From assembly GCA_024072375.1 (NCBI GenBank), contig CP099617.1:1778001-1842000 (forward strand): DNA of 64,000 nucleotides, given 5' to 3'. The position numbers and the translations under genes were made by a program. Source of the DNA: Sphingomonadaceae bacterium OTU29LAMAA1. Its GTDB lineage: Bacteria; Pseudomonadota; Alphaproteobacteria; Sphingomonadales; Sphingomonadaceae. Positions 50,300 to 57,192 of this stretch are shown here, one piece after another; the stretch's first letter is position 1; the number at the start of each line of letters is the position of its first letter. The notes below the pieces were generated by a model. That model was given only the letters and a program-made list of their open reading frames with translations, was not told the DNA's origin and did no database searches.

Positions 50300-51490
50300 T
50301 CATTGCTCCACCTCATCAGCTGTGCTCGTTTCAAAGTAGTTTATACTGTTTTCTACTGACTCCCTTAAGCTGTCAAAAATTAGCAGTAGCTTCTTACGAG
50401 GCTTGGATAGCCGTTTTTTTGCTTTATTAACATCTGTAGACAGTCGCGGCAGAGTGTCTGTTGTATGTATAAGGCTTTGCAGTTCACCATATGCTGAGTT
50501 GATACCCCCTATTAACTGTTTAGCCGCATCAATATTTCCAGATCCGGATTCCATAGGATCGTCAAAATCAAGCCTGATGCGCAAATCTTTGTCAATCAAA
50601 TCAGCCATTAGGCTTGCATCGCTCTCGACGGCATCAAGTAATGCCTCATACCTCGCAGCCAGTTCATTCATGCCGTCGGCAGCCTTGCGCATTATTGCTT
50701 TTATACCAGCGGCATCCGGCTGCCCAAACTTGAGTGCATCGCTTATTAATTGCGTACACTCATTGATTATAGCAGAATTGTCACTCTCATACTCGACTAA
50801 GCGCTGAAGTTTTTCGCTAAACTCTTCAACCAATCGCGTGAACGACTCTCCTAGCTCGATAAGGCCTTCCTCATCCTCATCATCCTGATCCTCTATCAAC
50901 GAGATGGCTGGCAGGTTCACCGCTTCACCTCTACCCGTATCGCTCAAAAAAAAACTTGAGTATTTATCCTTATCTTTGGCAATCTGCTCGAATAAAAGAT
51001 TTAAGATCGATCTTAAGGAGTTATCATCACTAAATTCACGATAAAAAGCACCTAAATCAGCGACTCTTTTCTTAAATTCCTGCACTTTAACTAACTGCAC
51101 AGCATCTATCGTAGTTGGATCAATCTCGCCTTTCTTGAACATTGTTGCAATCCGCAATACCTGTCCACTTTGGCTTCTCTCCAGTGCCGCGTTAAATTCT
51201 TCTTCTGTTCCAGAGTCCGCGATGCCTGTCGGTGTACCAAACTTGGTCCACATCATACCTAAATAGACATCATAATTATTCCCGACTTGATCAATAACGG
51301 CATCTTGCGCTCTACCACTTAGAGCAGGAGCAACAAGATTTTCCCACGTCAGAACTGATAGAAAGCATCCCGTGCTTCTACTTCTTAATCTGTTCCATTC
51401 GTTAGCATATTGAACCACAAACTCTCGCTCCGGATTTACATCCGCGGGACTCGATAGAAATATCTCGATGACTACAGCTTGGTAACTCAT
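50300..51490 (-). CDS. DUF4062-domain protein, AT-rich, likely acquired
   Basis: 396 residues. The N-terminal 105 or so residues match the DUF4062 pattern: a first strand with IEIFLSSPADVNPERE, a central WENL and VYLGMMWTKFGTPTG. In animals DUF4062 precedes NACHT NTPase modules (NWD1, TEP1). Here no NTPase follows; the rest is helical and acidic, with an EDQDDEDEEG linker near 215 and a coiled-coil-like C-terminus. Base use is unlike the surroundings (22 of 60 G+C in 50341-50400), and codons are AT-ended. The start is ATG 51490; the GTG at 51493 is out-competed. Recent transfer and a defence role are inference. Confidence 0.75.
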   Translation of the reverse strand: MSYQAVVIEIFLSSPADVNPEREFVVQYANEWNRLRSRSTGCFLSVLTWENLVAPALSGRAQDAVIDQVGNNYDVYLGMMWTKFGTPTGIADSGTEEEFNAALERSQSGQVLRIATMFKKGEIDPTTIDAVQLVKVQEFKKRVADLGAFYREFSDDNSLRSILNLLFEQIAKDKDKYSSFFLSDTGRGEAVNLPAISLIEDQDDEDEEGLIELGESFTRLVEEFSEKLQRLVEYESDNSAIINECTQLISDALKFGQPDAAGIKAIMRKAADGMNELAARYEALLDAVESDASLMADLIDKDLRIRLDFDDPMESGSGNIDAAKQLIGGINSAYGELQSLIHTTDTLPRLSTDVNKAKKRLSKPRKKLLLIFDSLRESVENSINYFETSTADEVEQ

Positions 51491-51511
51491 CACCTACCCC
51501 GCCAAATTTGA

Positions 51512-54561: not shown

Positions 54562-54954
54562 ATGGGCAAGAAGAAGAAGGCGAAGCTCCCCAAGGAAGTG
54601 ATGGGCGTGAAGCTGCCGAAGGAGGTGCGCGAGATCGGCGGGGCGCTGCTGGAGAAGGCGCAGAGCCCGCAGGGGCGCGAGATGCTGGCGGCGGGGCTGA
54701 CGATGGCGGCTGCCGCCGCGACCGCGGCGGTGGCGAAGGGGCGCGCGAAACGCGAGGCGGCGGCGGCGCCCGTGCCCCCTGCCACGCCCGAAGCGCCGGT
54801 GCCACCGGTCCCGCCGGTGCCGCCCGTACCCCCTGTTCCCCCGGTATCGCCGCAGGGTACGCAGATGCAGCCCGATCCGCAGGCGATCGCGGAAGCGGTC
54901 GGCAAGGCGGCGGAGGCGATGCTGGGGCGGCTGTTCGGGGGGAAGAAGGCTTAA
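54562..54954 (+). CDS. Lys-rich hypothetical protein with PVPP repeats
   Basis: 130 residues from ATG 54562. A very basic N-terminus (GKKKKAKLPKEV) and a KLPKEVREIGGALLEKAQSPQG stretch are followed by an Ala-rich helix, a proline repeat (VPPVPPVPPVPPVPPV) and a C-terminal amphipathic helix. It is possibly a DNA- or membrane-associated disordered protein. It ends tail-to-tail with the DUF488 gene, overlapping it by 4 bases. I recognise no family. Confidence 0.62.
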   Translation: MGKKKKAKLPKEVMGVKLPKEVREIGGALLEKAQSPQGREMLAAGLTMAAAAATAAVAKGRAKREAAAAPVPPATPEAPVPPVPPVPPVPPVPPVSPQGTQMQPDPQAIAEAVGKAAEAMLGRLFGGKKA

Positions 54955-55385
54955 AGGTGGACGATGTCCAGGCCGCTGACCGCCTGCGCGAGGTAGTCGG
55001 AGGCAAGGCGGCGGTGGCAGTGATCGGGCTTCGCTTCGCTGCATAACAGGCAGGTGCGGTCGAGATCGTGCAGCGCGATGCGGTGTTCGACCTTGCGCGC
55101 GGCGAGCAGGTCGAGGTAGCGGCGGGCATATTCGTCCCAGCCGATCTCCTTCCTCCGATAGGCGTCGAGGATGTCGGCGGTGGGGGCGAGCAGCGCCTCG
55201 ACCTGGTAACCGATGCCGCCGATCCGTTCTAGGAAGAAGGACAGGTCGTCCTGCTTGGCGAAACCGGCGAGTTGCGACACGCGGTTGAGGCGGGTGTCGT
55301 GGACGCGAGTGACGCCGGCGTGTTCGAGCCGGCCGAAGAAGTGTGCGGCCTTGCTCTTGGTGAAGCCGATCGTGAAGAGTTTCAT
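54951..55385 (-). CDS. DUF488 family protein (third gene of dual-OB/DUF488 operon)
   Basis: 144 residues. The DUF488 core is clear: LFTIGFTKSKAAHFFGRLEHAGVTRVHDTRL at the N-terminus and the conserved CLLCSEAKPDHCHRRLASDYL near the C-terminus. There C-x-E...CHR is thought to be the functional site. It is 12 nt downstream of a second, longer DUF488 gene and ends the operon. Biochemical function is unknown; its neighbours suggest nucleic-acid-related conflict roles. Confidence 0.82.
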   Translation of the reverse strand: MKLFTIGFTKSKAAHFFGRLEHAGVTRVHDTRLNRVSQLAGFAKQDDLSFFLERIGGIGYQVEALLAPTADILDAYRRKEIGWDEYARRYLDLLAARKVEHRIALHDLDRTCLLCSEAKPDHCHRRLASDYLAQAVSGLDIVHL

Positions 55386-55397
55386 GCCGGGGTCCCT

Positions 55398-55988
55398 TCA
55401 GCCGCGTTCGCGATACGCGATGGCGTCGGCCTGTTTCTCGTAGGCGAGCGCCAGTGCGCGTTCGTCGTCACCGGGCGCGCTGAGCAGCGGTGGCGGGGTC
55501 AGGCCATGGAGCGCGACCAGCCGGGCGTCGAACGTCGATTGGGGCTCCACCTGCCCATCCGTGTGGATGTGCGCGATCGTGTTGCGCAGGTCCTCCAACC
55601 GGTGCGCGACGAGGATCGCCCGATGGCATTCGACCGGGTCGCGTTCGGAGCAGACGAGCGCGAGCGTGGTCTTCGCGACGCCGTTGCGGACCCGGTCCAT
55701 GCCGAGCCGGAACGGTTCGGTCGCGGCGATCCGGTCGTAGCGCGCCTGCCCGTCGACGTAGCAGGAGCGATCATCGGGGCGCGCGCCGAGCTCGCGGCCG
55801 AGGAAGACGTATTTGATGCCCGCGGCGTTGAGATGCGCGCGGAACGGCCCACGGGTGAAGTCGGGTTTGAACTTCGAGAACGGCGTCGAACGCACGTCGC
55901 ACACGACCGCGATCCCGTTCTGCACGAGCCGGTCGATGAAGCCGGGCATGTCGAGCCCGGAATAGCCGATGGTGAACAGCCGTCCCAT
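55398..55988 (-). CDS. DUF488 family protein (second gene of dual-OB/DUF488 operon)
   Basis: 196 residues. DUF488 signatures: LFTIGYSGLDMPGFIDRLVQNGI, VCDVRSTPFSKFKPDFTRGPF and ALVCSERDPVECHRAILVAHRL. The C-terminal 45 residues extend past the usual domain (PQSTFDARLVALHGLTPPPLL). It differs clearly from the shorter paralogue downstream, so this is a paired arrangement rather than a fresh duplication. It is 9 nt after the dual-OB gene. Confidence 0.84.
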   Translation of the reverse strand: MGRLFTIGYSGLDMPGFIDRLVQNGIAVVCDVRSTPFSKFKPDFTRGPFRAHLNAAGIKYVFLGRELGARPDDRSCYVDGQARYDRIAATEPFRLGMDRVRNGVAKTTLALVCSERDPVECHRAILVAHRLEDLRNTIAHIHTDGQVEPQSTFDARLVALHGLTPPPLLSAPGDDERALALAYEKQADAIAYRERG

Positions 55989-55997
55989 GTCACGCGC

Positions 55998-56702
55998 CTA
56001 CGCCGGCACGATCACTCCGTTCAACTGCATGTAGCAGCGACGGGGATCATAATCGCCGTTCCGCCCTCGCCATGCCCGCGCCAGACCGATCCGGAGCGCC
56101 ACGCGGTCATGACCGACAAGCCGATCGCGCAGTGCATGGAGCGCGTCATCGTCCTGTCCGTCGAAGGTGAGTTCGGTGACGCTGAGGTGATGGCGGACCC
56201 CATCCGGATCGTTGAACGAAACCCGGATCTTGTCGAACGGCTTGCTGACCGAAACGCTGTCGCCATCGACGATCAGACAGCCGAGTGAGCGGCAGTCGGC
56301 ACGCTCCTCGACATATTTGTCATCGATCAGATTGTCGCCGACGATATCGGTAAGATCGTCGTCCGCCGTTTCCACACAGGCGTCGAACAGTTGCACCGCA
56401 GTCGCCGCGCCGATCCCGGTGACCCGGGCGACCCGCACATCTTCCGTACCGTGTGGCTTGTCCGATGCGGCCCCCGCGGCGAGCGACAGCGACAGGAGCT
56501 TGCCGACGCGAATGTGGCCGGCGTCGACCCATTTGTCCTCGGGCCAATTTCTGCCATCGGGTTGCAGTGGCCGGATCATCGCACCGGACGCTACGTCGAT
56601 GCCGGCGACGCAGACCATGCCGTCGCCCATCCGCGTGACCTCCGTCACCAGCATCTGGCGGTGGCCGGCGGGTATCGCCTGTTTGAGATCCTGCAACGCC
56701 AT
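55998..56702 (-). CDS. Dual-OB-like protein (first gene of dual-OB/DUF488 operon)
   Basis: 234 residues. The N-terminal part RQMLVTEVTRMGDGMVCVAGID..GAMIRPLQPDGRNW resembles the proteins called dual OB (DuOB) domain-containing, which I recall next to DUF488 genes; this memory is not verifiable here. Beta-rich blocks (HIRVGKLLSLSL, EDVRVARVTGIG, DKIRVSFNDPDGVRHHLSVTEL) fit two OB barrels, folds that commonly bind single-stranded nucleic acid. The last part (ALRIGLARAWRGRNGDYDPRRCYMQLNGVI) ends the chain. No enzymatic motif is seen. It likely acts as a nucleic-acid sensor for the two DUF488 proteins. Confidence 0.65.
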   Translation of the reverse strand: MALQDLKQAIPAGHRQMLVTEVTRMGDGMVCVAGIDVASGAMIRPLQPDGRNWPEDKWVDAGHIRVGKLLSLSLAAGAASDKPHGTEDVRVARVTGIGAATAVQLFDACVETADDDLTDIVGDNLIDDKYVEERADCRSLGCLIVDGDSVSVSKPFDKIRVSFNDPDGVRHHLSVTELTFDGQDDDALHALRDRLVGHDRVALRIGLARAWRGRNGDYDPRRCYMQLNGVIVPA

Positions 56703-56919: not shown

Positions 56920-57192
56920 CGCGGGTTGAATGCCGAGGAGCAGGCAAGGTGCGCTGGCTGCGGTCCGACTATCAAATCGCCAAGGGGAGGCTGACCAAGC
57001 TGCCAACCGTGAAAACAGCCAAGCCTGAACAGTTCGAGGCGCTGTTACGGGACGCGACGGCACGCAAGCCGGGCTTTCCCCGGGATGCAACCGATCACAC
57101 CGCGGCGGGTGCAGGCGACGCTGGAGGCGCTGGAGCGGCTGGGTCATGTCGCGGGCACCGATGGCGGCTATCTGTTGCGGCGCGCGGCCTGA
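56920..57192 (+). pseudogene. Remnants resembling the C-terminus of a DNA methyltransferase
   Basis: Fragments in different frames line up with the end of a type IIL/MmeI-like class I DNA methyltransferase as I remember it. One frame gives LNAEEQAR (near 56925-56950). The +1 frame gives VRWLRSDYQIAK (56950-56985), then ARKPGFPRDA. A third frame ends ITPRRVQATLEALERLGHV..GGYLLRRAA with a stop at 57192. In full proteins these pieces occur in this order with a longer helical linker. Frameshifts and deletion make this a decayed gene. The rest of the 565-nt gap (56703-57267) shows nothing but the inverted repeat. Confidence 0.5.

Follow-up and report, generated by a model that had tools for sequence, protein, structure and literature searches.

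A conserved and mobile cassette that combines a dual-OB protein with a DUF488 pair: a divergent variant of the listed candidate PDC-M45

The analysed stretch of Sphingomonadaceae bacterium OTU29LAMAA1 (64,000 nucleotides of contig CP099617.1, positions 1,778,001 to 1,842,000; hereafter the window) contains three minus-strand genes. An earlier note on this DNA had described them as a co-oriented operon with spacings of 9 and 12 nt, and coordinates, strand and spacing all agree with that description. The first gene (55998..56702) encodes a dual-OB protein of 234 aa, DuOB, which matches Pfam PF22557 with 37.7 bits at a cut-off of 27. It is followed after 9 nt by B (55398..55988), a DUF488 protein of 196 aa (PF04343, 79.1 bits), and after a further 12 nt by C (54951..55385), a protein of 144 aa in which both DUF488 (PF04343, 65.4 bits) and DUF488-N3a (PF22751, 40.5 bits) are recognized. 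The GC content at third codon positions is 0.77–0.88 in these frames, whereas two antisense ORFs that overlap them have values of 0.69 and 0.74, and because of this codon-position composition we favour the DuOB, B and C frames. B and C had been called dissimilar, which holds since they are only 27% identical across 127 residues. Nevertheless, profile comparison connects them (probability 98, E 1e-13) and, judged by their sequences, they are distant homologues. The source genome has one additional DUF488 outside the operon, and no second DuOB was found in it.

Both DUF488 proteins exceed the Pfam cut-off and retain the cysteine site that the earlier note had pointed out in each of them, namely C-x-E-x5-C-H-R. 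In B the site reads CSERDPVECHR (residues 113-123; 55620..55652, minus strand) and in C it reads CSEAKPDHCHR (residues 115-125; 55011..55043, minus strand). In an alignment of 52 proteins, C113 and E115 of B are conserved in at least 90% and C121-H122-R123 is invariant, and C115, E117, C123, H124 and R125 of C are all invariant in an alignment of 41. All 24 B and C proteins from 12 DuOB-B-C loci have the complete motif. At 36 loci on viral contigs it occurs in 11/11 B and 35/36 C frames, the exception being a shortened C (L114). One B-like DUF488 that stands alone, encoded by a Clostridioides plasmid (L020, 5995-6612), has no C-x-E half but retains C-H-R. DUF488 itself is a common domain, found in 6 of 14 well-known control genomes, and we know of no reaction that has been assigned to it. 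An archaeal DUF488-HTH protein fused to a ParB-CTPase fold, for which CTP binding is reported, is described in part of PMC12704722.

The lead gene had been thought to look like two OB folds, a proposal that was open to refutation by structure prediction, and AlphaFold predicts OB-like barrels for DuOB (pLDDT 94.1), with fold matches of modest score that include telomere end-binding protein and RPA70. The predicted DUF488 fold is PTP-like, likewise with modest scores. Searches of solved structures by sequence or profile returned nothing at E 0.001; DuOB had two weak matches, with E values of 0.04 and 0.4. Rhodaneses and PTPs belong to one superfamily, and the pair could therefore be imagined as sulfur-transferring, rhodanese-like enzymes that thiolate DuOB-bound nucleic acid as a self mark or as a tRNA or DNA modification; alternatively, the cysteines could hold a metal. 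The arrangement of C-x2-C and C-H around the site of C is in line with this idea; B has a single cysteine before C-H-R. Still, we consider it improbable, as phosphatases head the 50 fold matches listed for C and no cysteine desulfurase was noted beside the loci whose annotation was read. No rhodanese is among the 50 VIA matches listed for C, an absence that carries no weight.

The operon of the window has an M61 peptidase gene on one side and uvrA with a small gene on the other, and these flanks rule out that this copy lies in a dense defence island. A genus relative (G990) has the same flanks with a different gene of 560 aa between them, which reads like a chemotaxis receptor, so that the operon occupies a variable site. 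Of the eight M61 loci retrieved, only that of this relative includes uvrA, and B, C and DuOB were found at none of the eight. Methyltransferase debris had been claimed upstream of the operon and could be identified as a C-terminal remnant of an MmeI-like type IIL restriction-modification (R-M) enzyme (56934..57083, plus strand), which is 59% identical (E 7e-11) to an intact frame of G081. In this ORF of 1126 aa, three MmeI domains (methyltransferase, N-terminal and spacer) exceed the cut-off and the MmeI TRD falls below it. A possible last piece of the remnant in another frame (57085..57189, plus strand) is weakly indicated by one plasmid match (E 0.9) annotated as DNA methyltransferase. The plasmids searched with the remnant DNA and with its first piece gave no match. 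The cassette itself can be ruled out as an R-M system: Pfam detects only DuOB and DUF488 domains and no methyltransferase or endonuclease in the three genes, and the adjoining MmeI-like gene is a remnant. Next to uvrA, a DUF4062-like gene (50300-51493, minus strand) has a GC content of 0.436 versus 0.664 for the window and looks recently acquired; its N-terminal part matches PADLOC PDC-S60 with 115 bits and Pfam DUF4062 falls just below the cut-off.

DuOB-B-C is almost certainly a real module. The triplet, whose absence from relatives would have spoken against the earlier note, is present in relatives, and 12 such loci were compared. When DuOB alone was used to find loci, all 11 that came up (L006-L009, L026-L032) had C and, as a partner, B or a DUF4326 protein beside DuOB, and the association of DuOB, C and a partner is thus far above chance; the DuOB of one of them (L032) scores 25.1 bits, under the cut-off. 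Picking on C alone, with "C" defined by the word patterns of the scan, gave 36 viral-contig loci (35 with distinct centres), of which 35 contain DuOB and 35 a partner enzyme. Their gene orders are DuOB-C-DUF4326 (22 loci), DuOB-B-C (8), B-C-DuOB (2) and DUF4326-DuOB-C (1). The remaining three comprise a DuOB-C pair near a contig end (L099), a B with the shortened C where no DuOB was found (L114), and a natural B-C fusion followed by DuOB (L113, 3308-4438), in which a single frame of 377 aa includes both DUF488 halves and both cysteine motifs. B and the DUF4326 partner never co-occur in these 36 loci. At the one locus scanned with Pfam, the DUF4326 partner carries mSLOG at its N-terminus (102.2 and 71.1 bits), and five aligned partners have C-K-P-x-x-C-H-G-D in common, which parallels C-S-E-x-x-P-x-x-C-H-R.

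When the 12 DuOB-B-C loci are compared in pairs, the identities of DuOB, B and C are correlated with r values of 0.74, 0.75 and 0.85, host kinship not being removed, and these values were reached by 0, 1 and 0 of 5000 permutations. Of the trio in the window, DuOB is the least and C the most conserved member. Among the matches listed for B and C (at least 120 each, with 119 C entries used), 18 of 37 close DuOB clusters matched an equal-sized contig of a B or C cluster, compared with 0–2 for 12 shifts. B alone is no marker of the cassette because B-like DUF488 proteins occur without DuOB and C beside them (L020 and L024 according to their annotation; L019 according to a partial ORF list).

DuOB is rare, with 2 carriers among 249 genomes at the level of the family, 3 among 385 at that of the class and 5 among 398 at that of the phylum. 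These sets overlap, each includes the source genome, and four of the five phylum matches are over the cut-off. The DuOB-C-DUF4326 form is present on small plasmids of Citrobacter, Acinetobacter and Moraxella (L021, L022, L023). No match was obtained with the window DuOB in the plasmids searched or with a plasmid-type DuOB in the phage records searched, and none of 55 pattern matches to the window DuOB alignment in viral contigs was confirmed. A search of phage records with C yielded seven Gordonia phage records (30% identity, E 3e-4). Among the 8 of 43 viral loci whose neighbours were scanned are four prophage-like contigs on which genes for phage structure or replication lie no more than about 1 kb from the cassette. 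They comprise a terminase large subunit (L097, L104), a baseplate J gene (L110) and a P2-type replication gene A, the latter together with a GmrSD-type gene (L112). A plain housekeeping or repair operon with no part in conflict would agree with uvrA and the peptidase gene as flanks in the window and with the housekeeping neighbours of several relatives. However, such an operon would hardly be distributed so patchily, be replaced by another gene between the same flanks in a genus relative, or travel on plasmids, in prophages and within BREX, and we regard this explanation as very unlikely.

In two related contigs of the viral collection (L073, 2193-12365; L079, 777-8431), the DuOB-B-C trio is embedded in a BREX operon between a PglX-like gene and PglZ. 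On L073 the joints DuOB/B, B/C, C/PglZ and PglZ/BrxL are 4-nt overlaps on one strand, and on L079 this applies to DuOB/B and B/C. On both contigs PglZ, BrxB and, with about 400 bits, BrxL exceed the cut-off, and PglZ is present in 2 of 11 viral records searched. The genome of the window differs in this respect, as no PglZ over the cut-off was found there, only a single weak match below the cut-off and away from the cassette. The cassette is an insert in BREX and does not belong to BREX itself. None of the terms "DUF488", "rhodanese" and "dual OB" occurs in the main text of a BREX survey from 2026 (PMC12839542), and no DUF488 or rhodanese was found in PMC10853773.

This placement bears on the strongest rival explanation, in which the cassette serves the mobile element by repairing nucleic-acid ends or counteracting restriction, so that broken ends are cleaned and a phage or plasmid survives host nucleases. 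An end-binding protein combined with end-processing enzymes is equally consistent with repair, and copies are found on small plasmids and on prophage-like contigs beside terminase, replication or baseplate genes. Yet the trio is also found inside a BREX operon of bacterial type and in the vicinity of further defence genes, and neither a ligase nor a kinase was seen in the cassette. Taken together, we consider a counter-defence or repair function on behalf of the element unlikely.

Known or candidate defence genes are found near 5 of 16 non-viral DuOB loci, a count that covers part of the neighbours and has no random control. The neighbours are type II R-M genes (a C5 methyltransferase and an MvaI/BcnI endonuclease) along with TcmP/DUF5131-type genes and an ATPase with weak similarity to MzaB (L007), Csm6, Csx16 and Cas1 (L016), CBASS genes (L018), Cas1, Cas2 and Cas6 as the only annotated CRISPR genes (L025), and PD-Lambda-2_C and PDC-S21 (L029); a sixth locus (L006) has the same gene layout as L007. 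At one locus the cassette is flanked by integrases (L008), others have plasmid, transposon, toxin-antitoxin or unknown genes nearby (L017, L021, L022, L023, L032), and four have housekeeping, transport or unknown neighbour genes (L026, L027, L030, L031). A TcmP-type gene paired with DUF5131 (PADLOC PDC-M41/M30 candidates) adjoins the cassette in two distant hosts (L007, 10846-12572; L018, 7313-9457).

The copies near CBASS or Csm6 genes lead to the next rival explanation, nucleotide-signal processing. Here, the pair would act on small nucleotide-derived signals or toxins such as ADP-ribose or oligonucleotide derivatives, with DuOB as a nucleic-acid sensor that switches the pair on. The swapped partner is a mSLOG-DUF4326 fusion, and SLOG and DUF4326 have been assigned to ADP-ribose networks in part of PMC9503650. 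B, however, has no SLOG domain in Pfam, and BREX and R-M are among the neighbours of the cassette. To our knowledge, neither of these uses a signal of the ADP-ribose or oligonucleotide type, and we judge a signal-processing role to be quite unlikely.

The earlier note had proposed a conflict or defence system on the basis of a nucleic-acid binder with paired enzymes. This reading is supported by the PADLOC candidacy, the embedding in BREX and the defence and phage neighbours; its basis is genomic and structural, and the neighbour counts stand without a random control. Overall, we consider a defence or conflict role of the cassette probable, and it is conceivable, if somewhat short of an even chance, that it acts by end chemistry. 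Our tentative reading is that of an anti-phage module in which the predicted DuOB grips nucleic-acid ends or single strands and the two DUF488 proteins alter the ends via their cysteine sites. DuOB as the least conserved member would be the recognition part that holds these ends or single strands, C would be the constant catalyst, and B, elsewhere the mSLOG-DUF4326 protein, would be the second enzyme of the pair. C together with B or DUF4326 could change terminal phosphates. Ends that arise from restriction, BREX, CRISPR or phage replication would then have a terminal phosphate removed or exchanged, which would prevent their resealing. Ends are suggested as substrates because of the predicted PTP-like fold, the DNA-cutting neighbours (BREX, R-M) and the proposal that DUF4326 acts on terminal phosphates on ribose, made in part of PMC9503650.

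A more specific and rather doubtful version of this anti-phage reading is a new defence chemistry of end tampering: DuOB, as a fast-evolving recognition part, would catch single strands or ends left by BREX, restriction or CRISPR, and C with B or mSLOG-DUF4326 would rewrite the terminal phosphate and block ligation and replication of the invader. The slot between PglX and PglZ would then be explained because the cassette would be an add-on that makes reversible nicks permanent damage. If true, this would be a way to make breaks in invader DNA irreparable, and we know of no described defence system that does so by tampering with ends. With its two DUF488 proteins, a likely ssDNA binder, partner swap, fusion and BREX slot, the cassette offers a concrete system for probing DUF488 chemistry.

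Among known families, the pair falls into the DUF488 clade of the rhodanese-phosphatase superfamily, with which it has in common the DUF488 and DUF488-N3a domains, the occurrence of DUF4326 as an exchange partner and, tentatively, the PTP-like fold predicted for C. DuOB, DUF488-N3a and DUF488-N3i are Pfam names that reportedly originate from Burroughs and Aravind (2023), who are said to have predicted DNA-end processing in conflict systems. The mSLOG-DUF4326 modules share DuOB and C with the window and have a parallel cysteine site in the partner, but in the window the second DUF488, B, takes the place of mSLOG-DUF4326. The closest counterpart is PDC-M45, for which PADLOC-DB 2.0.0 (2023) holds the models PDC-M45A, B and C. 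According to parts of two papers, PDC systems are unpublished candidates that mostly await validation (PMC11811056, PMC12988326); no paper on PDC-M45 was found in the part of the literature covered by our search. B matches PDC-M45B with 220.3 bits and C matches PDC-M45C with 194.8 bits; the two genes are adjacent as members of these families, and DuOB precedes B in the place of the A component, which is itself a DuOB. The trio is therefore no nameless set, and only in treating it as unnamed does the earlier note have to be revised, as PADLOC independently lists the same kind of set as a phage-defence candidate. The M45A models match the first gene, Pfam DuOB, of operons of the same order in Allochromatium, Rhodovastum and Agrobacterium plasmid loci. 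In contrast, the window DuOB has no match at E 0.1 to the PADLOC models, M45A included, and the set is a variant of PDC-M45 rather than a strict match because the M45A models miss this protein. The window DuOB shares 17-21% identity with seven DuOBs of the plasmid-type branch, and both profile comparison (E 4e-5, probability 69) and Pfam link it to that type. By sequence, the window DuOB is thus a divergent DuOB branch that escapes the M45A models even though B and C are recognized. In conclusion, the cassette is real, conserved and mobile and is a divergent variant of a kind of candidate that is already listed; what is added here is evidence that partners are exchanged in a modular way and that the cassette can be located within BREX.
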